DNA from: Microcaldota archaeon
GTDB taxonomy: Archaea > Micrarchaeota > Micrarchaeia > Micrarchaeales > CABMGC01
Reading direction: 5' to 3'
Assembly: GCA_021852055.1 (NCBI GenBank)
Contig: JAJZOD010000011.1
Span: 1-41,033, forward strand
DNA length: 41,033 nucleotides
In this document: positions 2,847 through 38,798 of the stretch, in pieces
Position numbering within the stretch: the stretch's first letter is position 1
Layout: every line of letters starts with the position of its first letter
The notes under the pieces: model-generated
The model's input: the letters and a program-made list of their open reading frames with translations, nothing else
Database searches by the model: none
What the model was told of the DNA's origin: nothing
Program-made: the position numbers and the translations under genes

Positions 2847-5800
2847 TTGAGAAGTCAACGGTTGCAATCAGCAATGGAGTTCTTGTCGCAGTATGCTGCG
2901 GCTATACTAATACTCATAGCTGCGGTTATTGCCGTTTACATGTTTGCTGTGCCTTTGAAGCCATCTACATACAGTCCATCCTACTGCTACATAACTCCAA
3001 ATCTGTACTGCTATCAGATGTTAATAACAACAAATTCAGTTGCAACAGACATTGAAATTGCGTTTACAAACAACCTCGGCCGTTCCATATACTTGCCGGG
3101 TGATCCTGCATTCTATGCTTCAATATCATCTGGCAGCAAATATATTGCAGGGCAGTGCAATACAACGGCAACAGGTAACATACTCAAGGCAGGTGCATCT
3201 GCAACGTGTGCTGTATCAGTAGACCTGTCGGTAACTCCAGGTTCAGAGCTACAGCCTACATTTTATCTGCAGTATGCACAGTGCAATGATCCTTCATGCA
3301 GCAACTACGCATCTCTGCCTTTAATAAATACATCGGGCTCTGCTGTTGCTTACGCTACGCCTATGTTACCAAGCACAACAAGCACCACTTCTTCAACTAC
3401 ATCAACTTCAACTACAACTTCAACTACCACTTCAACAACTTCTTCAACTACCACCTCCACAACTACAGTTTCTGTACAGCAATTATACGCGACAATCTCT
3501 CCTTCCACTGCCACAGTGCAGGTAAACCAGCAGCAAATCTTTACGCTGACAGTGTCAGGCGGCCAGTCTCCTTACACATACCAGTGGTATGGCGGAACAA
3601 GTCCAAACTGTAATTCAGACCCAGAGATACCAGGGGCAACAGGCATTACTTACGCGGCATCGCAGTCTTCAGCAGGTGTTTATTATTATTGCGCTGTTGT
3701 TTCAGATAGTAACCATCAGACTGCAGATGCAGGTCCGGTCCAGCTTAATGTAATATCAGCACCTCCGCTATTGTCGTCAAAATACGGGTGCTATGCCGAA
3801 GTAAACATATCAAACCAGCAGAATGTCGGAACAGGCCCATATTTCCAGCAGATGGTTGTTATACCATCCTATAAATACTCATCATGCGCAAACAAAAATC
3901 TGAGCAATATGCTGTTTACTGCAGATGCACCTGAAAACCAGACCGGAAATGTACCTTTATACTCCTGGATTGAGTCAGGCGCAAGCAACACCTCTACAAA
4001 TACCCTAATATGGATAAATATGAACAGCATTTCTCTTGGCGCTGAAGGTTCATTCAAAAATACAACTACCCTGTACATGAACTTCCTGCCAAACAACAGT
4101 CCTGTGACATCAAAGTATACTGGCTATGCGCCGCAGCTATGGTGCGCATCCGGATGCTACCAGACAAGTTATGCACAATACGACAACGGCGGAAAAGTTT
4201 TTGATTTCTACGACAATTTCGCCGGCAATGCATTAAACACAAGTAAATGGAGTGTGTCAAATGACGGAGGTTTATTACCCTCCTGCATTTCATACGCTGT
4301 TAATAACGGATTCACAATTACTGGGTACGATATTAACAATTGTGGATTCGGTGCATTCGGGGCAATACAATCAGTATTTCCAATAAGTTCAAGTCAAGTA
4401 GCGGATGTATATGGCACTTCCTTCGGAAGTTCAAATATTTATGGCGACATGTATACTGGTTATACTGTCATGGGTGACAATCCTGCTGGTGTATATCTAC
4501 TTTCAGATCATGGGCGTGGCGAATGCGGCGGGCCTACATCTCTTTGTGGTTGTATAAAAACCACCGAAAATCAAAACTCATGCACCGGTTCACTTCCTTC
4601 GCTTTCCGGGAGCGATCTTGGTGTTTGGAGCATTAGTATAAATTCAATCTCGCCATCATATATCAGTGCCAATTTCCAATTAAATTATAGCAATACGCAG
4701 AGCGCTTACCTGTCTTCAAGTTCCGGATTTCAGACCCTCGGTTTGGACTTGTTTGGATACTACGATGACATATCTTATACCAATGGCATTCCATATTATA
4801 TACAATGGATAAGGCTTAGACAGCAGCCTCCGAACGGTGTAATGCCTACTGTTAACATATCAAAGCTTACTCCATTATCAGTTTCTTTAAGTACTTCTCA
4901 GACGTACTTATTCTCGTCTGGGTCTGCTGTGCTCACGGCCAATGCATTAGGTGGCATAGCCCCTTACACATACAGTTGGTATGAAGAGGCCCCCGGGCAG
5001 TCGGTGTATACCTTAATAACCGGCGCTTCATCCAACACATACAATTTCAATGCGTTTGGTATGCCGGCTGGCACCTACTCGTTTATTGCATCAGTGCACG
5101 GCAATACGGAATACCCTATCACGCAGGCAAACAGCTCCCCAGTAAAAATAACAGTAAACGATGTTGGCTATGCATACGTTTTTAATTCAGAGTCTTGCCC
5201 TGTTTCAACGTGCTATCCCGCAAATGTTGTAAGCGTAAGTACCTCAACAAGCAGCGTTACAAGCAATGTAACCTCATTTACTCAAAAAACCCAGCAAGGC
5301 CTACTCGAAACTCACAATGGCGGTGCTGTTGCATTTGCTCCAAGCGGTGCGTACGCTTATGCAACAAATCCCGATTTAAATGAAGTAGAGATAATAACAC
5401 CTTCAGGGATAAATGGCAATATAACATCGGGCTTCAGCGATCCTAAAGGCGTGGCTATCTCTCCAGACGGATCATTTGCGTACGTTACAAACTATAACTC
5501 AAACAATGTAGTGATAATTAATACAGCAACAAGCAGTGTTGTCGGTGCAATAACTGCAGGGTTCAGCAAACCGTTTGGCGTAGCAATAGCACCGAATGGT
5601 AAATATGCTTATATTGTAAATTACTATACGCAAAATGTTGTAGTGGTAAGTACCTCAACAAACAGCGTTGTCGGTGCAATTGATGCTGGCGAATATTACG
5701 GCTTAAACTATCCTACGGGCGTAACATTCTCTCCTAACGGAGGATATGCGTACATCCTTAATACGCAATCCGACGGAAACAATGCGCTAATAATAAACAC

Positions 5801-7196
5801 TGCAAATGGGCAACCCGTAAATGTTATAACTTCCGGTTTCAACAATGCAACTGGTATTGCAATAATGCCAAACAGCGCTATGCTTTATGTTACAAACTAC
5901 GGCAATGAAGGTGGCGCCGAACCAGGATTTGGTGCAAATGTAGTTATAATAAATGCAGTAAATAATCAGGTTGTAGGTGCCATAAGCTCCGGCATAGCCG
6001 GTCCTGGAGGTGTCGCATTCTCTCCAATTGGCACATACCCTGCGCCGAGCGGTGCATATCCTGCACCATTAACGCCTCCACCTCTTGCAGTAACAGCAAT
6101 ATCACAGCAAAGCTCTGTATACGCAGGAGAAACCATGAGAATATCTGCAACAGTTTCAAATGGTGTGCCTCCTTATACATCGCAATGGTATGAAGAGGCC
6201 CCTGGGCAGTCAGTGTATACACCCGTACCAGGAACCCAGGAATCAGGCTATACTACGTTTAGGCCATTCTCAGAAACAGCGCCATCAACTCCGGGAACAT
6301 ATTCTTTCTTCATATCGGTAAGCGACGCTAATACGCCTACACATCAGTCGCAGACGGTCAACAGCCTGCCTGTCAGTATAATCGACACAGGCACATTGAC
6401 AAATTATGCATACGTTACAAATATGTACGGCCAGGATATCTCGATAATAAACACCGCATCAAATACAGTTCAAGGTTCAATATCCAACTACCAGTTCGGA
6501 TACACACTTAACGATCCAGATGGCGTTGCATTCTCGCCAGACGGCACAAATGCATACATAACAAACTCTGGTTCAAGCAACGTTATAATATTCAGTACCT
6601 CAACAAACAGCGTTGTTGGCGCAATTAATTCAGGTTTCTCACATCCGAGCAGCATTGCAATATCCTCTGGCGGCTATGCATACGTTGCAAACAGAGGCAG
6701 CTCGAATGTAGTTATAATAAACACAAATAAAAATACTATTGTCGGGTCTATAAAATCAGGAATATACGATCCATTTAGTGTAGCTGTAGAACCAAACGGT
6801 AATGCCTATGTTGTAAATTACTATTCATATAATGTAATTATAATAAACACAGCAACTGGAGTTCCAGCAGGCATAGTAAATCTGGGGTACAGACCTTCTC
6901 CTGTAAGCGTAGCGTTGTCGCCTAGTGGAAATTATGCATATATCTCACTAAGCACTACCGGCGGAACTGACGAAATTGCCACTGTAAATACCATAACAAA
7001 TGACGTGACTAACACAATAATAACGAGCGGCACCGGAAACATAGCCGTCTCCCCTGACGGGTCGTTTGCGTATCTGATAAGCGGCAGCGAAATTGAGATT
7101 ATAAATCTTGCAACCGACTCAATAGTAAGCACAATATCTTCATCAACATTTGACTTACCTGCTGATGTAGCGTTTCATCCTGTCCCTACAGGCTAA
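2847..7196 (+). CDS. Giant cell-surface protein: pilin-like anchor, Ig-like, DUF2341 and YVTN beta-propeller domains
   Basis: A 1449-aa protein starting at TTG 2847; a stop codon at 2829 excludes an upstream start. The N-terminus RLQSAMEFL followed by a hydrophobic helix to about residue 36 resembles an archaeal class III (type IV pilin-like) signal, so it is probably processed and held in the membrane by that helix. In order: globular region (40-175); Ser/Thr linker (about 178-206) suited to O-glycosylation; Ig-like domain (about 215-305, SPYTYQWY); DUF2341 with a lectin-like tail (about 310-670, YAPQLWCASGC, FDFYDNFAG); second Ig-like domain (about 677-770); YVTN beta-propeller repeats (about 772-1075, repeats such as YVTNYNSNNVVIINTA); third Ig-like domain (about 1078-1180); second YVTN propeller (about 1185-1449). 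Likely exposed and used for adhesion or as cell-wall component; that role is inferred. A DUF2341 paralogue lies at the right edge. Confidence 0.88.
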   Translation: MRSQRLQSAMEFLSQYAAAILILIAAVIAVYMFAVPLKPSTYSPSYCYITPNLYCYQMLITTNSVATDIEIAFTNNLGRSIYLPGDPAFYASISSGSKYIAGQCNTTATGNILKAGASATCAVSVDLSVTPGSELQPTFYLQYAQCNDPSCSNYASLPLINTSGSAVAYATPMLPSTTSTTSSTTSTSTTTSTTTSTTSSTTTSTTTVSVQQLYATISPSTATVQVNQQQIFTLTVSGGQSPYTYQWYGGTSPNCNSDPEIPGATGITYAASQSSAGVYYYCAVVSDSNHQTADAGPVQLNVISAPPLLSSKYGCYAEVNISNQQNVGTGPYFQQMVVIPSYKYSSCANKNLSNMLFTADAPENQTGNVPLYSWIESGASNTSTNTLIWINMNSISLGAEGSFKNTTTLYMNFLPNNSPVTSKYTGYAPQLWCASGCYQTSYAQYDNGGKVFDFYDNFAGNALNTSKWSVSNDGGLLPSCISYAVNNGFTITGYDINNCGFGAFGAIQSVFPISSSQVADVYGTSFGSSNIYGDMYTGYTVMGDNPAGVYLLSDHGRGECGGPTSLCGCIKTTENQNSCTGSLPSLSGSDLGVWSISINSISPSYISANFQLNYSNTQSAYLSSSSGFQTLGLDLFGYYDDISYTNGIPYYIQWIRLRQQPPNGVMPTVNISKLTPLSVSLSTSQTYLFSSGSAVLTANALGGIAPYTYSWYEEAPGQSVYTLITGASSNTYNFNAFGMPAGTYSFIASVHGNTEYPITQANSSPVKITVNDVGYAYVFNSESCPVSTCYPANVVSVSTSTSSVTSNVTSFTQKTQQGLLETHNGGAVAFAPSGAYAYATNPDLNEVEIITPSGINGNITSGFSDPKGVAISPDGSFAYVTNYNSNNVVIINTATSSVVGAITAGFSKPFGVAIAPNGKYAYIVNYYTQNVVVVSTSTNSVVGAIDAGEYYGLNYPTGVTFSPNGGYAYILNTQSDGNNALIINTANGQPVNVITSGFNNATGIAIMPNSAMLYVTNYGNEGGAEPGFGANVVIINAVNNQVVGAISSGIAGPGGVAFSPIGTYPAPSGAYPAPLTPPPLAVTAISQQSSVYAGETMRISATVSNGVPPYTSQWYEEAPGQSVYTPVPGTQESGYTTFRPFSETAPSTPGTYSFFISVSDANTPTHQSQTVNSLPVSIIDTGTLTNYAYVTNMYGQDISIINTASNTVQGSISNYQFGYTLNDPDGVAFSPDGTNAYITNSGSSNVIIFSTSTNSVVGAINSGFSHPSSIAISSGGYAYVANRGSSNVVIINTNKNTIVGSIKSGIYDPFSVAVEPNGNAYVVNYYSYNVIIINTATGVPAGIVNLGYRPSPVSVALSPSGNYAYISLSTTGGTDEIATVNTITNDVTNTIITSGTGNIAVSPDGSFAYLISGSEIEIINLATDSIVSTISSSTFDLPADVAFHPVPTG
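4977..5011 (+). repeat. Internal repeat copy 1 in the surface-protein gene
   Basis: The 35-nt segment encoding WYEEAPGQSVY in the second Ig-like domain recurs at 6186-6220 with only two mismatches. The surrounding Ig-like domains are less similar, so this core has been duplicated recently or is kept alike by recombination or gene conversion. Confidence 0.8.
6186..6220 (+). repeat. Internal repeat copy 2 in the surface-protein gene
   Basis: Direct repeat of 4977-5011 (33 of 35 bases identical), encoding the same WYEEAPGQSVY core in the third Ig-like domain. Recombination between the two copies would delete or duplicate one Ig-like domain plus one propeller in frame, because the spacing of 1209 nt is divisible by three. 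Confidence 0.8.
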
Positions 7197-7270
7197 GTAA
7201 GCTATGGTATTGGCTGTGTTGCTGCAGTTTCTAAAGGCAGTGTAGCTGCTCACATGCAGCTCAATGCAAT

Positions 7271-7279
7271 ACTTATATC
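7271..7279 (+). promoter_or_regulatory. TATA box that decides the HerA start
   Basis: The element acttatatc is centred about 27 nt before the ATG at 7302. This places transcription start on or next to that codon (leaderless mRNA). It argues against the upstream in-frame ATG at 7254, which lies before the TATA box. Confidence 0.6.
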
Positions 7280-7301
7280 TTTTGCCGTGTTTACAATTAT
7301 T

Positions 7302-8858
7302 ATGGAGCTGCAGATATCCGAAGAGGTTTCATTGGAAGCCCAGCTGGTCATGACTGGTCGCGGCTGCGTAATAGGACAGAGCGGCTCAGGCAAGTCGTTT
7401 CTGATGGGTCTGATAACAGAGCAGCTTTTGAGGCTGGGCCTGCCATTCTGTGTAATAGATACAGAAGGAGAGTATGTATCATTGAAGGACGCGTCAAAGG
7501 GTGTGCTTATAGTCGGTGGTGAATCTGCCGACGTGCCTGTTGATGTAAATTTTGAGATGCTGTTCAGGGAGGGCATAGCAAAGTCTGTGCCAATGGTGAT
7601 CGATGTTTCAGACACTACAGGCAAGGCAGACATTGTGTATAAAGCCTTGGGAGCTCTTTACACTGTCGAAGAGGAGATGCGCAAGCCGTACCTGGTGCTT
7701 ATAGAAGAAGCTGACAAGTTTGCACCTCAGATAGTGCACCAGAAGATAAATATAATAGAAGAGCTGAGCGTGCGCGGCAGGAAGCGCGGTATAGGGCTTC
7801 TTATAGCAACGCAAAGGCCCAGCAATATAAGCAAGAACGTACTGTCGCAGTGCTCTTACGGTTTCATAGGCAAACTTACAATAGAGAACGATTTAAGCGC
7901 CATAAGCCAGCTGTTCAATGACCGAAGCGCACTGGAAGAGATAGTGAACATGCATACGGGCGAGTTCATGCCGTTTGGCATAGAGTACAAGCAGCGCTTC
8001 AGGGTCAATGGCAGAAGCTCGCTGCATATGGGTTCGACTCCAGAGGTATCAGAAGTGCAGAGTCCTACGCGTCAGGATCTCTCCGGAATCATATCACGCT
8101 TAACTGCAGTGCAGAAACCTGCAAAGAGGCAGGCTATCCGACAGGACGAGAAGTCGGTGCATGCAGAAGCTGTGCCGTTCACATTCACGGACAGCCAGGC
8201 CAAGGCGTATGCTGACAGGACATCAAGAAAGATGTTCGGCATATTCGGAAGAAAGGTTGAAGAGCCGCAGTCGGTAGAGCAGAAGTATATTGCGGCATGC
8301 CTGTGCACAATACGCGTGCCCACAGGAAAGAAACGCGAGTTCGAAGAGCACAGCATACTTATCGGAAGCGGCAACAGCCTGATAAAAATAGGCGCATCAA
8401 TAAAAGTCAGAAGGCTTGGAATTAAACCATTAAGATTGTCGCAGCAGGACGAGAATCTGTTAAGACTGGTGCGTGCAAAAGGGAGCGCAAGAAAAGATGT
8501 ACTGGTAAAAAAAGGTGTCCTGAAACCAAAAGGCGCGTCTGCAGTGCTTAAAAAACTTAACGCAGCGAATCTTGTAACCCTCTCTGGAGATACACTGAAA
8601 TCCGAAGATTACGCCGATTTTTATATGAAGGATAATCTGGCAGCATCTCCTGCCGTTCTGCAAGGCAGCAAAATAGACGGAAACTTTCCAAGCGAAGATG
8701 AATCAGAACTGCTTCTTAAAAACCTTTATCCTACCTGTTCCATGACGCTGTACTCGCGTATACTCCTGCCTATTTACGAGATTACTCTCAGGCGAGGCAA
8801 CAAAGTGCGCGTCTTTAAGATAGATGGAATTAAGGGCAGGGAGCTTGTTTACGCTTAG
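7302..8858 (+). CDS. HerA/FtsK-superfamily (DUF87) ATPase
   Basis: A 518-aa protein from ATG 7302. Walker A GQSGSGKS is at residues 25-32, Walker B is YLVLIEEADKF at about 130-140, and the HerA signature region RGRKRGIGLLIATQRPSNIS follows. This is the DUF87 type of hexameric DNA- or substrate-pumping ATPase. Canonical HerA works with the nuclease NurA in DNA-end resection, but no nurA is next to it. The roughly 270-residue C-terminal part includes a possible winged-helix segment (about 370-430, SARKDVLVKKGVLKPKGA) and is not the standard HerA C-terminus. A role in DNA translocation or in secretion or pilus assembly is equally possible given the pilin-like gene just upstream. It overlaps the convergent metallothionein-like ORF by 4 nt. 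Confidence 0.85.
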   Translation: MELQISEEVSLEAQLVMTGRGCVIGQSGSGKSFLMGLITEQLLRLGLPFCVIDTEGEYVSLKDASKGVLIVGGESADVPVDVNFEMLFREGIAKSVPMVIDVSDTTGKADIVYKALGALYTVEEEMRKPYLVLIEEADKFAPQIVHQKINIIEELSVRGRKRGIGLLIATQRPSNISKNVLSQCSYGFIGKLTIENDLSAISQLFNDRSALEEIVNMHTGEFMPFGIEYKQRFRVNGRSSLHMGSTPEVSEVQSPTRQDLSGIISRLTAVQKPAKRQAIRQDEKSVHAEAVPFTFTDSQAKAYADRTSRKMFGIFGRKVEEPQSVEQKYIAACLCTIRVPTGKKREFEEHSILIGSGNSLIKIGASIKVRRLGIKPLRLSQQDENLLRLVRAKGSARKDVLVKKGVLKPKGASAVLKKLNAANLVTLSGDTLKSEDYADFYMKDNLAASPAVLQGSKIDGNFPSEDESELLLKNLYPTCSMTLYSRILLPIYEITLRRGNKVRVFKIDGIKGRELVYA

Positions 8859-9001
8859 TTTTCGTTTTCACTGCGCTCACCCTTACGTTCGCTGCATGTG
8901 CAGCTGCAGAAGCACCCTTTCTTGCAAGAACAGCCTCCTACGCACCCGCACATGCATGCGCCGCCGCACTCGCACCCACCTCCGGGCCCCTGATTTGCCA
9001 T
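8855..9001 (-). CDS. Metallothionein-like cysteine-rich small protein
   Basis: The minus strand from ATG 9001 to TAA 8855-8857 encodes 48 residues with 11 Cys at positions 10, 12, 16, 18, 20, 24, 26, 30, 32, 34 and 36. The core is built of C-x-C pairs (CEC, CMCGC, CSC, CFCSCTC) separated by Gly, Ala and Ser, with no His and a charged tail (SERKGERSENEN). That composition is what metallothioneins use to wrap d10 metal ions in thiolate clusters; binding of Cu(I), Zn or Cd is inferred, not shown. The spacing does not obviously match the bacterial SmtA family. A TATA box at 9025-9034, about 28 nt upstream, predicts a leaderless mRNA. The gene converges on the HerA ATPase and shares 4 bp with its 3' end. 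A Cys-rich frame of this regularity is unlikely to arise by chance. Confidence 0.72.
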   Translation of the reverse strand: MANQGPGGGCECGGACMCGCVGGCSCKKGCFCSCTCSERKGERSENEN

Positions 9002-9024: not shown

Positions 9025-9034
9025 TTTATATACC
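9025..9034 (-). promoter_or_regulatory. TATA box for the metallothionein-like gene
   Basis: On the minus strand the sequence reads gtatataaat, centred about 28 nt before the ATG at 9001, as expected for a leaderless archaeal transcript. A second A/T element (tttataaa on the plus strand, 9011-9018) lies too close to the start to be the functional box. The 9002-9246 stretch otherwise holds only the promoter region of aIF5A; I see no further gene in it. Confidence 0.55.
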
Positions 9035-9246: not shown

Positions 9247-9651
9247 ATGTCAGAGGAGATAACGTACGGCTCAATGAGCGATATAAAACCGGGCAGATTC
9301 ATACTTATAGACGGCATTGCATGCAGGGTTGTAAGCGTGGATACGTCGAAACCAGGCAAGCACGGTGCAGCAAAGATGCGCATAACTGCCATAGGCATAT
9401 TCGACGGAACCAAACGTACTCTGCTTTCTCCAAGCACTGGAGATGCGCAGATACCAGTCATAGGCAAAACCAAGGCGCAGGTCGTCTCAATATCTGACAA
9501 TACTGTGCAGCTGATGAACCTTGAAACATATGAAACTTACGAGGTGCCGATGCAGGAGGAGCTTCGCAAGGAGCTAAAGCCCGGTGCAGAGGTCGAAGTA
9601 ATGGAGTATGGATCCAACAGAACAATGACAAGGATATTAGGTGGCGTTTGA
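9247..9651 (+). CDS. Translation factor aIF5A
   Basis: A 134-aa protein of normal family length. The N-terminal SH3-like domain holds the hypusination loop SKPGKHGAAK with the modified lysine at residue 38 (between Gly37 and His39). The C-terminal OB-fold ends in VEVMEYGSNRTMTRI. aIF5A rescues ribosomes stalled at poly-proline and similar motifs and needs deoxyhypusine synthase. I chose ATG 9247 over GTG 9238 because a gggtg Shine-Dalgarno-like element at 9235-9239 is correctly spaced from 9247 and MSEEITYGS is a natural aIF5A N-terminus. The stop overlaps the next start (TGATG), so it is co-translated with S24e. A TATA-like ggtttaaatacc at 9118-9129 would give a leader of about 100 nt. Confidence 0.95.
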   Translation: MSEEITYGSMSDIKPGRFILIDGIACRVVSVDTSKPGKHGAAKMRITAIGIFDGTKRTLLSPSTGDAQIPVIGKTKAQVVSISDNTVQLMNLETYETYEVPMQEELRKELKPGAEVEVMEYGSNRTMTRILGGV

Positions 9652-14430: not shown

Positions 14431-15141
14431 TTACCTTATCTGCTCATACCTTTTGTTTGGCATCTTCAGAAAGTGGTATCTGAAAAAGTTTCCCACATAA
14501 AACATGAAGTAGCCGAAAACGCCCCACTGCTGCACGCGCCTTACGCTAGTGTAAACAAGTGCATCGTCGATGTACAGCATTCGCCCGAGTTTCTTCATCC
14601 TTGCTGAAAGGTCCCAGTCCTCATAGGTCATGAAGCGCTTGTCAAATCCATGTACCCTGTTGAACGCCTTTTTCTGAACAGCAAAATTAGAGCCTACAAG
14701 CGCAGGCCTGCCTATATTTATCGTCAGCCTTACGAAAAGGGTGCTTACGAACCTGTAACCCAGCGAGATGGTCTTCTTTGCATCTTCCAGAGGAAGAATG
14801 GGTCCTGTGGCGGCAACAACGTCGTGTTCCATGCCTGTGTGGTATGAGTCAAGCAGCATAGGGCTGGGTTTTGTATCGGCATCTATGAAAACTATTATCC
14901 TACCCCTTGCTATTCTCGCTCCGGCGTTTCTCGCAAGGCCTATACCCCTCTTTTTTTCTATTATGACTTTTGCGTGGTTCTTTTTTGCGATATCGCGCGT
15001 TCTGTCACTGCTGTTGCCGTCCACAACTATGACTTCGAAGTTCTTGAATATCTGCCTTGACAGTCCATCGAACAGGTATTTTATGTACTTCTCCTCGTTA
15101 AGTGCAGGAACAACAACGCTTATCTCAGGGATTCTTGGCAT
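14431..15141 (-). CDS. Family 2 glycosyltransferase
   Basis: 236 aa. A GT-A fold is indicated by ISVVVPALNEEKYI at the start, VIVVDGNSSDRTRD at 37-50, the DxD motif DADTKPSP with Asp87 and Asp89 for metal and nucleotide-sugar binding, and the acceptor-side motif YEDWDLSARMKKLG. The C-terminus has only a short hydrophobic or aromatic segment (GYFMFYVGNFFRYHF), so it is cytosolic or peripherally membrane bound. Likely adds a sugar to a lipid carrier or glycolipid. A TATA-like acatttaatagt (minus strand) is centred about 27 nt before the ATG, suggesting a leaderless mRNA. It lies between a CDP-alcohol phosphatidyltransferase and a Nudix gene, which fits membrane-lipid or glycan synthesis. Confidence 0.9.
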   Translation of the reverse strand: MPRIPEISVVVPALNEEKYIKYLFDGLSRQIFKNFEVIVVDGNSSDRTRDIAKKNHAKVIIEKKRGIGLARNAGARIARGRIIVFIDADTKPSPMLLDSYHTGMEHDVVAATGPILPLEDAKKTISLGYRFVSTLFVRLTINIGRPALVGSNFAVQKKAFNRVHGFDKRFMTYEDWDLSARMKKLGRMLYIDDALVYTSVRRVQQWGVFGYFMFYVGNFFRYHFLKMPNKRYEQIR

Positions 15142-15183
15142 AATTAAGATTACGCAGGAATACTATTAAATGTTGATATCCAG

Positions 15184-15816
15184 TTAAGCAAATGCTTCAT
15201 AAAGCTCGGCAGCACCCCGAAGAAGTATGTATGCGAGCAGCACAGCCACAAGTGCGTAGCCTATTATCGCAGGATATGCATACGCGTAAACAAGCGCCAG
15301 ATATGCAAATGCGAGGAACTTCACAACGTTTATGCCTCCTCTTCCTATGTTCGAGGAGTATATCTTCGCTGCAAATCCGGTTTTCATCTTGCTTGATGTG
15401 CCTCTTGAGCCCATAACTGCATCAACGAAGGAGTGGCGCACGAATACTATAATCAGTATCCATAGCGGCAGCACGTGCAGATAGACAAACGTGGCCCAGA
15501 GCGTATACTCTACAATCCTGTCTCCTGCTATGTCCATGCGCGCACCGTAAGGTGCGCTTGATGATATCCTTCCTTTCAGCGCCTTTACAGATGCCTTCTG
15601 CTTTATATCGCCCATAGCAGCACGGGCATACATTGCAATGCCCACCTTGCCCTTGCTCTGCTCCTTGACTGCAAGGAAGCCGTCGAGCCCGTCAAGTATC
15701 AGTGCCACTGCTATGATAGATATGGCTAGAAAAACCTGAAATTTCGCTATTATCATGTATGCTGCAATGATTACCAAAGCAACCCGTGTAAGCGTTGCAG
15801 CATCAGCGGATCTCAT
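15184..15816 (-). CDS. CDP-alcohol phosphatidyltransferase with interrupted catalytic motif
   Basis: 210 aa, five to six membrane helices. Family members transfer an alcohol (inositol phosphate, glycerol phosphate, serine) onto CDP-activated lipid. The motif DGx2ARx8Gx3Dx3D is recognisable as D42-G-L-D45-G46...G91-A-R-M-D95-I-A-G-D99. The AR pair is Ala49-Val50, and about 32 extra residues (KEQSKGKV through SSSAPY) separate the two halves. The four Asp residues that bind metal and CDP are all present, so activity is plausible. The ATG at 15816 is about 30 nt downstream of the palindromic TATA element at 15842-15851, shared with ileS in the other direction. Confidence 0.82.
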   Translation of the reverse strand: MRSADAATLTRVALVIIAAYMIIAKFQVFLAISIIAVALILDGLDGFLAVKEQSKGKVGIAMYARAAMGDIKQKASVKALKGRISSSAPYGARMDIAGDRIVEYTLWATFVYLHVLPLWILIIVFVRHSFVDAVMGSRGTSSKMKTGFAAKIYSSNIGRGGINVVKFLAFAYLALVYAYAYPAIIGYALVAVLLAYILLRGAAELYEAFA

Positions 15817-15841
15817 TAAACCGCTATTATTTGGTACGGAA

Positions 15842-15851
15842 CATTTATAAG
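15842..15851. promoter_or_regulatory. Shared bidirectional TATA element
   Basis: The element catttataag is centred on the palindrome TTATAA. It lies about 30 nt before the minus-strand phosphatidyltransferase ATG (15816) and about 44 nt before the ileS GTG (15890). One TATA box may therefore serve both divergent genes, giving a near-leaderless mRNA to the left and a short leader with an aggt ribosome-binding element to the right. Confidence 0.45.
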
Positions 15852-15889
15852 GATAATTTGAACATTATGTTTGTAATAGGTATGAGTCA

Positions 15890-18800
15890 GTGTTCAATCT
15901 AAACGCCAATGAGGAGTATGTTCTAAAGTATTGGAGTGATAACAAGATCCTGGAGAAGGCCCGGCAGAAGAATAAGGGCAAGAAACCATTCTACTTCCTA
16001 GACGGTCCTCCATATGCAAGCGGAGATCTGCATCCGGGGCAGATATGGGTAAAATCAGTAAAAGACATACTTGTGCGCTACAGGCGCATGAAGGGCCTTG
16101 ATGTGCATGACAGGGCCGGCTTTGATGTCCACGGCCTTCCCATAGAAAACAAGATCGAAAAGCTGCTTGAGCTCAAATCGAAGAAAGAGATAGAGGATAA
16201 AGTGGGTGTGGAGAACTTCGTGAATGAGTGCAGGAAGTATGTCGACTCCCTTATACCGAAGATGACTGCAGACTTCAGGCGCTTCGGCTCATCCCTTGAT
16301 TTTGATTCCGCATACCTTGCTTACAGGAACGAGTTCATAGAATCGGCATGGTCCATGCTGAAGTCAATTCACAAAAAGGGGCTTCTGTATACTGAACCTA
16401 AACCAATGCTCTTCTGCCCACACTGCGAAACTGTGCTGGCGCAGGGCGGAGCAGAGGTCGTTTACTCTGATGAAAAAGACCCGTCAATATTTGTTGCGTT
16501 CAAGATTGATTCAAGAGCATCAAAAGCCGGAATAAGTGCAGACGGAGACACATATCTGGTCATCTGGACTACAACTCCATGGACTCTGCCTTCAAACATT
16601 GCAGTTGCAGTAAATCCAAAAGAGCGTTACGTGATTGTAAGCGCAAAATCCATGCATCTGATAATTGCAAAGCAGCGCCTCGACGCAGTAATGTCTGCAT
16701 TAGGAGAAAATGCAGTTGTCGAGTCGGAATTCTACGGAAGCGAGCTTGAAGGCATAAGGTATGTAAGTCCGTTGGAAGAAAAAATCCCAAAGCAGGCCGA
16801 GTTTAGGAAATTTCATAAAGTTGTGATGGCCGAAAGTCTTGTTTCATTGGAAGAGGGCAGCGGCCTTGTTCACATAGCACCGGGCCATGGTGCAGAAGAC
16901 TATGTTATAGGGAAAAAGAACAACCTTCCAATATTCTCGCCGGTAAACATGCAGGCAGTATACACTGAAGAAGCAGGTTCATACTCGGGCTTGAAAGTGC
17001 CTGGTGAGGCAAATGCTGCAGTCCTCGCAGACCTAAAGGTCAACGGCTCCCTTCTTGATGAAGGCCATATAACGCACAGTTACCCGCACTGCTGGCGCTG
17101 CAACAGCAAGCTCATACTTATAAACACAAAGCAGTGGTTCCTCAACGTGCAAAAGCTGAAGAAGAAGCTGATAAGCGAGAACAAAAAAGTATTGTGGCAT
17201 CCTGGGGAGGCGCAGGCCTGGTTTGAGGATGTGCTGCAGGGATCACCTGACTGGAGCATAGCCCGCCAGAGATACTGGGGAATACCAGTGCCTATCTGGG
17301 AGTGTGGCAAGTGCGGCAGCACGCATGTTGTCGGTTCGCTTGAAGAGCTCTCATCACTGAGCTTAGACAGCGCAAAGGTTGCATCCATGCAGGACTTGCA
17401 CAGGCCTTACATAGATTCTGTTGTGCTTAAGTGCAGCACATGCGGCTCTGAGATGAAACGCATAAAAGACGTTTTTGACGTTTGGTTTGATTCCGGGATA
17501 GCGTTTAGGTCAAGCTTGTCTGATGACGAGTTCAAGAACATGTTTCCTGCAGATTTTATACTTGAAGGGAAGGATCAGCTTCGCGGCTGGTTCTCAACTC
17601 TCCTAAAAACCAGCGTAATGGTATACGGCAAGGCGCCATATAAAAACGTTGTCATTGATGGCATGCTTCTTGCCGAGGACGGCCGCGAGATGCATAAGAG
17701 CTGGGGCAATTATATCGCATTGAGCGAACTGCTAAAGATAACCAGCGCAGATGCGTACAGGCTGTGGTGCTCAAACCACACGCAATGGCTTGATCTTCAG
17801 TTCAAAAAGGCTGAGATAAAAGAGGCCGAGAAAAAGATAAATACATTGTATAATATATTCAACCTGTTTCAGGATTACTCCTCCGCTGCCGGCTATGTGC
17901 CAAAAAGGGTCAAAAAGCCAGTAATAAAAGAGGATAGCAATTTAGAAGACAAATGGATACTTTCTAGGCTGGCAAGCGTTGCAGCTGAGGTTGATTCTGC
18001 ATTGCAGGGATATACAGTGCAGCGGGCAAACAAGTCTCTGGGCGATTTTCTGCTAAATGACTTAAGCAGGTTCTACCTGAAGATAGCAAAGCGCAGGATA
18101 GCATACGGCACAAAGGCAGACTCAAGGAGAACCCTCGACATAATAAACTACATCATGTATAATGTCATAACATTAATGACGCCTTTTGCCCCTTTGACAA
18201 CAGAGTATCTTTATCTAAACAACTACGCAGGGTATGACCGCGCTCCTGAAAGCATCTCGCTCTGCGGCTGGCCAAAGATTCCCGGAAAACTGATGAATAA
18301 CGAGATAGAACTCCAGTTCAAGGTAGCTGATTCTGCGCTGAGCGCCATACTGAACAGCCGCGAGAAATCAGGCGTGAAGCTCAGGTGGCCTATCCTAACC
18401 GCTACGATCGAAGTGATATCGCCACAAGCTGAAAACGACCTGCAGCGCATGTCCGGAATAATGGAGGAGTATGCCAATGTCAAGAAAATAATTGTTAAGA
18501 GGGTAGAGTCATTTTCTACAGACATAAGGCCTAACTTCTCCGCCATAGGCCCAGAATTCAAAGAGAAGAGCAATGCAGTATCAGAGGCGCTGAAATCTGC
18601 AAATGCGGCAGAGCTGTCTGACGCCATTTCAAGAAGCGGACATTATGAACTGCATACAACCGCAGGAACTGTGCGGATAACTCCACAACATTTCACAACC
18701 ATAGAAAAACTGACAAAGGAGAACTCGGTAAAGTTTGATTATGGGATAGCATACATAGAGCCAAAACTCGACGCAGGACTAATGGAAGAAGCCATCATCC

Positions 18801-30677: not shown

Positions 30678-30709
30678 TTAAAAATAGGTACCAAACAGCA
30701 ACATGCTTT
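30678..30709 (-). repeat. 5S rRNA 3' end plus T-run, duplicated in inverted orientation at 40075-40106
   Basis: These 32 bp hold the last about 20 nt of 5S rRNA and the following tacctatttttaa, read on the minus strand. A copy with two mismatches occurs on the plus strand at 40075-40106, 9.4 kb away. The T-run after the 5S end is a plausible archaeal transcription terminator. Confidence 0.8.
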
Positions 30710-30803
30710 CCCACTGTTACAGCAGTATTTCATGTCGTGAGCAGGCTTAGCTTCCGAGTTCGGAATGAGTTCGGGCGTTACCCTGCTCCTATGGCCGTTT
30801 GGC
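30690..30803 (-). rRNA. 5S ribosomal RNA
   Basis: On the minus strand the segment carries the archaeal 5S core: ggccatagga, cccgaactcattccgaactc, ggaagctaagcc, and a loop-E/helix IV-V region ending gggaaagcatg. The terminal helix closes as ccaaacggc with gctgtttgg (one G-U pair), giving a length of about 114 nt. The boundary is set from that helix and may be off by two or three bases. The promoter TATA lies about 25 nt upstream, so the 5S transcript needs little or no 5' trimming. There is no 16S or 23S next to it: 5S is a separate transcription unit. Confidence 0.92.
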
Positions 30804-33420: not shown

Positions 33421-33532
33421 TGCGAACGCCGGGATTTGAACCCGGGTTTTTGGCTTTCTTCGGTATGAAAAAACTCCATGTGTAAAGTTTTCTTGGAAGG
33501 CCAGAGTCCTGACCAGGCTAGACTACGTTCGC
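33421..33532 (-). tRNA. tRNA-Gly(UCC) with a 38-nt intron
   Basis: Minus strand. Exon 1 is 33532-33494 (acceptor GCGAACG, D-arm, anticodon stem CTGGC and loop CTTCCA). The intron is 33493-33456. Exon 2 is 33455-33421 (A38, GCC stem, short variable loop, T-arm CCGGG-TTCAAAT-CCCGG, acceptor CGTTCGC and A73). The anticodon UCC reads GGA and GGG codons. Acceptor and T stems pair fully; the outer anticodon pair 27-43 is C-A, a mismatch. The CCA tail is not encoded. The intron sits between positions 37 and 38, the canonical archaeal site. Confidence 0.93.
33456..33493 (-). other. tRNA-Gly intron (bulge-helix-bulge type)
   Basis: 38 nt, inserted after A37. CUUC of the anticodon loop can pair with GAAG near the intron 3' end to make a 4-bp central helix. 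Three-nucleotide bulges on each side (CA^A and AA^A, cleavage marked) place both cuts exactly at the predicted exon ends. This is a bulge-helix-bulge substrate for the tRNA splicing endonuclease. The intron-side helix is weak, so the motif is of the relaxed kind. Confidence 0.75.
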
Positions 33533-37249: not shown

Positions 37250-38734
37250 ACTCCAGTCGATGCTGCTGGAGGACACTGCTATCAGATTTCGACAGCCATG
37301 CAAGTCAACATCTGGACATCAGGTGTGGCACACGGCTCAGTAACGCGTGGTCAATCTAACGTTGGGAAGGGTATAACCTTGGGAAACTGAGGCTAATTCC
37401 ATATAATCTAAGACATCTGGAAGGAGTTTTAGGTGAAAAGGGACGCGAAATGGAGCGTCTTCGCCCTACGATGAGACTGCGTCGGATCAGGCAGATGGCG
37501 GGGTAACGGCCCACCATACCTTTGACCCGTAGGGGATATGAGAGTATAAGCCCCGAGAAGGGCACTGAGACAAGGGCCCTAGCGCTACGGCGTGCAGCAG
37601 GCGCGCAAACTCCACAATGTGCGAAAGCATGATGGGGGGAGTCTGAGTGGCACGTTTTTAACGTGCCTTTTGCCAAGTCTAGTCAGCTTGGCGAATAAGT
37701 GCTGGGTAAGACCGGTGGCAGCCGCCACGGTAATACCGGCGGCACAAGTGGTGTTCACTATTATTGGGCTTAAAGCGTCCGTAGCTGGCCGGAACCGTCT
37801 TATGTGAAATGTGCTTGCTCAACAAGCATGCGTGCATAAGATACCTTTCGGCTAGGGAGCGGGAGAGGTCAAGAGTACTTACGGGGTAGGGGTTAAATCC
37901 TGTAATCCTGTAAGGACTACCTGTGGCGAAGGCGCTTGACCAGAACGCATCCGACAGTGAGTGACGAAGGCTAGGAGAACGAATCGGATTAGATACCCGA
38001 GTAGCCCTAGCAGTAAATCATGCAGACATTGGTGTTGCACCTGTCTTGAATAGGTGCAGTACCGTAGGAAAACTGTTAAGTCTGCCGCCTGGGGAGTACG
38101 GCCGCAAGGTTGAAACTTAAAGCAATTGGCGGGGGAGCACACAAGGGGTGGATGCTACGGTTTAATTGAATTCAACGTCGGGAATTTTACCTGGAGCGAC
38201 GGCAGGATGAAGGCCAAGCTAAAGACTTTGCCTAACGAGCCGAGAGGTGTTGCATGGCGATCGTCAGTTCGTGGTGTGAACTATCAGGTTAAGTCCTGTA
38301 ACGAACGAGATCCTCGCTGACAGTTGCTACTGGCGTGGATGCACGTCAGGCACTCTGTCGGGACCGCCTGCGTTTAAGCAGGAGGAAGGGGAGGGCTACG
38401 GTACGTCAGTACGACCCAAATCTCCAGGGCTACACGCGGCATACAAAGGCTGGCACAATGGGTTGCCACTCAGAGATGAGGAGCTAATCCCCTAAAACCA
38501 GCCCCAGTTCGGATTGAGGGTTGAAACTCACCCTCATGAAGTTGGAATCCCTAGTAATCGCCTGTTACCATCGGGCGGTGAATATGTCCCCGCTCCTTGC
38601 ACACACCGCCTACCAAGTCATCCAAGTGGGGTCTTAGTGACGCCGTATCTTCTGATATGGTCGAACTAAGGTCTCGTGAGGGGGGCTAAGGTATAACAAG
38701 GTATCCGTAGGGGAACCTGCGGATAGATCACCTC
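37250..38734 (+). rRNA. 16S ribosomal RNA, highly divergent archaeal type
   Basis: About 1485 nt. Landmarks: start actccagtcgatgctgctgg (equivalent of the archaeal 5' end), 530-loop region at 37715-37733, attagataccc near 37983, aaacttaaagcaattggcgg near 38114-38132, cacacaccgcc near 38600, and the 3' end ggatagatcacctc with an intact anti-Shine-Dalgarno sequence. No intron seen. Several nearly universal positions differ: 18 and 917 (swapped pair), 518 and 527, and 1404-1406 with 1495-1497. Most are compensated across helices, so the gene looks functional. No 23S gene follows within the window and no tRNA lies in the flanks. Confidence 0.96.
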
Positions 38735-38798
38735 GAAAAACTTTTATTAAAGGTTTTATCAAGAACTAAATTATCATTTAGTGTGCACAAAAGCATTT

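Follow-up and report, generated by a model that had tools for sequence, protein, structure and literature searches.

A conserved cysteine-rich protein family, probably of metallothionein type, in one order of Micrarchaeota

The DNA analysed here, termed the window, is a stretch of 41,033 nucleotides from a Microcaldota archaeon. A short reading frame on its minus strand ends within the 3' end of a convergent ATPase gene, and the features at this locus are the following.

7254-8858, plus strand: gene for a HerA-like (DUF87, PF01935) ATPase, assigned by Pfam, convergent with the metallothionein-like gene.
8855-9001, minus strand: metallothionein-like gene, 48 codons plus stop (147 nt), defined by translation and homologue alignment.
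9026-9032, minus strand: TATA-box-like TATATAA, at -31 to -25 from the ATG of the metallothionein-like gene.
9250-9651, plus strand: aIF5A gene (IF5A-like_N, eIF-5a), divergent neighbour of the metallothionein-like gene, listed as context only.

Translation of 8855-9001 gives MANQGPGGGCECGGACMCGCVGGCSCKKGCFCSCTCSERKGERSENEN, a protein of 48 residues with no His and 11 Cys at positions 10, 12, 16, 18, 20, 24, 26, 30, 32, 34 and 36. The preliminary description of this DNA had claimed a 48-codon, His-free frame with the Cys layout CxC, CxCxC, CxC, CxCxCxC and a 4-bp overlap with the convergent HerA gene; translation confirms the former, and the HerA-like stop, ending at 8858, leaves positions 8855-8858 shared by both genes. 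At 147 nt the frame exceeds the usual length floor of Prodigal (90 nt). The window belongs to a Micrarchaeota MAG, as shown by its aIF5A, which shares 89% identity with that of Micrarchaeota isolate YP3.bin95 and whose remaining best matches are also from Micrarchaeota. Beyond the HerA-like gene, a 1449-residue ORF (2847-7196, plus strand) with a type IV pilin-like N-terminus, a Thr/Ser-rich linker and YVTN-like repeats probably encodes a surface protein; its broad sequence cluster has relatives near 15 other copies of the metallothionein-like gene, possibly through low-complexity similarity. Further along the window, Rfam detects a 112-nt tRNA gene (33421-33532, minus strand) that ARAGORN misses and that therefore probably contains an intron. 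The genes for 16S (37250-38736, plus strand) and 5S (30690-30802, minus strand) rRNA are not linked and lie on opposite strands, and no 23S rRNA gene lies within the 41,033-nt window.

A frame of this kind could in principle be a spurious ORF, antisense to or between real genes and rich in Cys by chance. Among Markov-simulated windows matching the real one in size, a frame of 30 or more residues with 11 or more Cys within 40 residues arose in 1 of 150 order-1 and 3 of 150 order-2 windows, and this frequency of 1-2% makes the Cys count alone a weak argument for a real gene. The number of CxC steps is a stronger one, with seven in the window frame against a maximum of six among all 300 simulated windows. 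What decides the matter is conservation: the frame at 8855-9001 (minus strand) is a real gene because it recurs as 41 copies in 39 genomes, with invariant Cys, in many different genomic contexts and under strong purifying selection at the codon level. On this evidence a chance ORF is ruled out, and we assign that reading a negligible probability.

The preliminary description had named beforehand, as a check, homologues with conserved Cys in close relatives. Such homologues were found: a search with the single sequence matched 24 of 60 relatives, about 20 of them strongly. A profile search extended this to 41 strong copies in 39 of the 164 genomes of the order, 29 genomes belonging to one family (f1) and 10 to another (f2), with about 19 genera represented. 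This search did not find the family in the remaining 137 of the 301 Micrarchaeota genomes, and a search of 395 genomes of relatives, at least 94 of them outside this phylum, gave no match beyond the order; matches elsewhere with E above 0.001 were short and were not accepted as homologues. In the sample covered by our searches (301 Micrarchaeota genomes and at least 94 others), the family is confined to one order of Micrarchaeota, archaea whose likely hosts are Thermoplasmata. A viral, phage or plasmid origin was considered and rejected, as no homologue was found in IMG/VR viral contigs, phages or plasmids.

Alignment of the copies yields the consensus MANQGAGxGCECGGxCxCGCxxGCxCKxxCxCGCTCGER(R/K). 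The pattern of potential ligands is essentially invariant, with all 11 Cys present in every intact copy but one, and at each Cys position the codons alternate between TGC and TGT. Family members comprise 41-60 residues, with 22.5% Cys, 21.6% Gly, 0.5% His and about one aromatic residue per protein; the layout has seven CxC steps, CC motifs are absent and no His is conserved. The N-terminus is hydrophilic and lacks any signal-like segment. Among 36 distinct copies, synonymous sites are near saturation and non-synonymous sites constrained (mean pS 0.67, pN 0.26; pN<pS in 628 of 630 pairs), and dN/dS relative to the window copy, where estimable, is 0.14-0.45, bearing out the predicted synonymous change around a retained Cys pattern. 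Variability at codon positions 1, 2 and 3 is 0.11, 0.13 and 0.37, respectively, and all 35 members tested keep the coding frame open, whereas each other frame contains stops in 5-19 members.

Conservation is not limited to Cys. The MANQGxG N-terminus, the CECGG block and a (G/A/S)ER(K/R) sequence following the last Cys are retained, and N3, Q4, G5, G7, G9 and R39 are at least 90% conserved. A start and tail kept this strongly exceed what a pure metal sponge would require, which counts against a simple metal buffer. These residues could instead belong to a small structural zinc-binding adaptor, in which the MANQGxG start and the ER(K/R) tail recognise a partner, with metal serving only to shape the fold. 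Structural zinc sites take four Cys each, eight for two sites, and 11 Cys within 27 residues is far above this; most other residues between the Cys, and the tail, also vary freely among copies. We regard an adaptor of this sort as very improbable.

Several copies depart from the consensus or are decaying. In one genome (G133) the Cys at position 20 of the copy MANKSGKGCKCGASCECGHGSGRCMCTYANCDCGCNCGEKI is replaced by His, itself a metal ligand; this is the only departure from 11 Cys in an intact copy. A divergent copy in G022 retains all 11 Cys and lacks the MANQG start. In G073 (L150:2363-2516, plus strand) a TAA replaces the conserved Gly19 in an otherwise intact frame, marking either a pseudogene or an assembly error, and G131 (L174:1397-1730, plus strand) holds a decayed remnant in which stops have appeared and some Cys have become Tyr; it lies downstream of a Sua5-like gene, the locus at which G133 has its divergent intact copy. 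An intact member in G003 (L104:8302-8451, minus strand) has no ATG, GTG or TTG, and ANQG begins after an ATA codon, which suggests either initiation at a non-standard codon or sequencing error. As the source genomes are MAGs, part of the loss and decay may be sequencing error. The in-frame TAA and the decayed locus nevertheless weigh against the metal-buffer explanation, as does the patchy distribution within the order (39 of 164 genomes).

All five genomes of the window's genus that hold the locus have the gene in convergent orientation beside a HerA-like gene, while the other flank of the gene varies. The preliminary description had asked whether the frame is broken in close relatives; it is intact in all five. 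Two further genus members lack the gene, but both are MAGs only 58-59% complete in which the HerA-like gene is missing as well, so that the absence there reflects missing data. Identity among same-genus genomes is 71-89% for the small protein, compared with 52-59% for the adjacent HerA-like protein. In the closest relative, the HerA-like homologue adjoining the metallothionein-like gene (L101; G005:C32, about 14510-16078, minus strand) carries, when compared with the window's gene, a TAG within its reading frame close to the 3' end. The position of TATATAA upstream of the window gene would fit a transcription start near the ATG, that is, a leaderless archaeal transcript; a second TATA-like site, TTTATAA, lies at -17. 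The gene had been described as having its own TATA box, and this holds for the window copy but is not general: the position of TATATAA is not kept among same-genus homologues, and about half of all copies closely follow an ORF on the same strand, at a distance of 0-46 bp, some of these ORFs being possibly spurious. A promoter or operator common to the family was rejected, TATA-like sites occurring at varying places or not at all.

Comparison with known proteins points to a new family covered by no existing one. Pfam, NCBIfam and PDB contain no significant match, so membership of a known metallothionein family was rejected, and family sequences retrieved none of the solved metallothionein structures. 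Metallothio_5 of Drosophila (PF02067) came closest to detection, at a best E of 1.3 in 2 of 17 members, below significance. AlphaFold2 predicted no fold (pLDDT 53, pTM 0.22); the model is uninformative as a structure, and a missing predicted fold is as expected for an apo-thionein. Cyanobacterial SmtA is accompanied by a divergently oriented gene for the repressor SmtB. SmtA/BmtA proteins resemble the present family in being short, Cys-rich, presumably cytosolic metal-thiolate proteins of prokaryotes with similar size and Cys number. They nonetheless use both Cys and His as ligands and form a well-folded cluster containing a zinc finger (PMC7387436, PMC10612145), whereas the present family has no conserved His, no predicted fold and no adjacent repressor that we could see; among annotated neighbours, no SmtB/ArsR-type gene forms a recurrent cluster next to the copies. 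The SmtA/BmtA profile (PF02069, Metallothio_Pro) gave no match in the window's own genome while responding to a Synechococcus control, and matched no family member; together with the lack of a conserved His, this rules out membership.

The mycobacterial copper metallothionein MymT is likewise small, initially unannotated, Cys-rich and, as suspected here, a Cu(I) binder, but its Cys spacing presumably differs, and no copper-responsive operon was seen around the metallothionein-like gene. In layout the family appears to work most like the CxC-type metallothioneins of fungi and animals. Neurospora Cu-MT, yeast CUP1 and Drosophila Metallothio_5 are also His-free, nearly free of aromatics and dominated by CxC, with Gly, Ser and Lys spacers. 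There is no significant homology to these proteins; the present family lacks CC motifs, and the conserved MANQG start is peculiar to it. The likeness is likely to be convergence.

By composition and Cys layout, the protein would work like a minimal, His-free, single-domain metallothionein. It shares the general features of these proteins, namely low mass, high Cys content in CxC motifs, few or no aromatics and a Cys pattern kept across homologues, and the metallothionein-like reading of the preliminary description is supported accordingly by Cys layout, composition and homologues with retained Cys. With seven CxC steps, Gly-rich turns, no His, about one aromatic and no predicted apo-fold, the chain would fold only upon metal binding, its 11 Cys enclosing several ions of soft metals such as Cu(I) or Zn(II)/Cd(II) in a metal-thiolate cluster. 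Formation of the cluster would lower free metal in a cell inhabiting metal-rich acid. We infer metal binding, cytosolic buffering or detoxification and the choice of metal in this way; Cu(I) is a weakly held first guess, suggested by the CxC-dominated layout and the habitat. Acid mine drainage is a typical habitat of Micrarchaeota, and their genomes contain metal-stress genes (PMC5864196). Most relatives also encode members of the heavy-metal P-type ATPase family, which we count in favour of a metal buffer, although their presence is not associated with that of the family (15 of 20 carriers versus 24 of 40 non-carriers; Fisher p=0.39). Among those neighbours that could be annotated, no metal regulator, transporter or chaperone recurs. 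On balance we consider it highly probable that the product of this gene is a cytosolic metal buffer of metallothionein type with a single domain, the window's member of an unnamed family confined, in our sample, to one order of Micrarchaeota.

Outside the genus the gene changes place in the genome, its neighbours differ and it often lies late in unrelated operons. Denoting the metallothionein-like gene as X, the order E2-X-E3, with genes of a lipoyl 2-oxoacid dehydrogenase and gaps of 0-51 bp, occurs in G036 and G060 (both f1) and in G120 (f2); E3 adjoins the gene in G074 and lies about 0.7 kb downstream in G148. The order aconitase-isocitrate dehydrogenase-X is found in G026 and G010, and UbiA-X with UbiD/UbiX-like genes in G017 and G086. 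(Pfam identified E2, E3, aconitase, UbiA, EamA and SIMPL; isocitrate dehydrogenase was assigned by sequence inspection.) Enzymes with lipoyl groups or Fe-S clusters are among the classical targets of soft metals, which attack vicinal dithiols and exposed Fe-S clusters. These operon contexts hint that the peptide may serve mainly in local protection of, or metal-thiol exchange with, lipoyl- and Fe-S-dependent central metabolism, and not in general resistance; co-transcription would then place a metal buffer where it is needed, at 2-oxoacid dehydrogenase E2/E3 and aconitase. Micrarchaeota are unusual among DPANN archaea in having a near-complete TCA cycle (PMC5864196). An E2 gene is present in 19 of 20 carriers compared with 28 of 40 non-carriers, but this association (Fisher p=0.04) is marginal even before any correction, both MAG completeness and shared ancestry confound it, and the adjacency itself was noticed post hoc. 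Moreover, most copies adjoin other genes, including those for a SIMPL-domain protein (preceding the copy in G038, G052, G113 and G140), an EamA transporter (preceding it in G092, G095 and G099), an amidohydrolase and HerA-like proteins. This variety of partners favours a simpler view, in which the gene is just mobile and is tolerated behind genes that are well expressed. We therefore hold the protective role only tentatively; it is a special case of the metal buffer, and the likelihoods given to the two overlap. Equally tentative is the wider proposal that the family arose in one DPANN order independently of known metallothioneins, is operon-mobile and has repeatedly been wired into lipoyl/TCA operons as a guard.

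The same neighbourhoods bear on another reading, in which the 11 thiols per protein would serve redox chemistry or thiol storage (disulfide exchange, or substitution for a low-molecular-weight thiol) or Fe-S transfer, with no multi-metal cluster. Proximity to E3, a disulfide oxidoreductase, and to aconitase in some genomes would suit this, but the rigid CxC spacing of the 11 Cys and the Cys-to-His replacement in G133 better suit metal ligation, and there is no CxxC thioredoxin-like motif set in a fold; we judge such a function very improbable.

Metallothioneins have been described from eukaryotes and some bacteria. The preliminary description had called them hardly described in archaea, and in agreement with this the phrase 'archaeal metallothionein' was not found in 5.39 million open-access papers, though the subscription literature may hold an earlier mention; Micrarchaeota and metallothionein occur together as words only in a data report. 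As a metallothionein-type metal buffer, this conserved family, which existing profiles do not detect, would bring strong evolutionary evidence for metallothioneins in the third domain of life, here in small acidophilic archaea. It would also provide a minimal, His-free scaffold for studies of metal binding and would make the metal tolerance of these archaea directly testable from a synthetic peptide of 48 residues. The most interesting lead is the link to lipoyl/TCA operons, where the E2-X-E3 order offers a concrete hypothesis in which the connection between metal toxicity and lipoyl enzymes would extend beyond mitochondria and bacteria.
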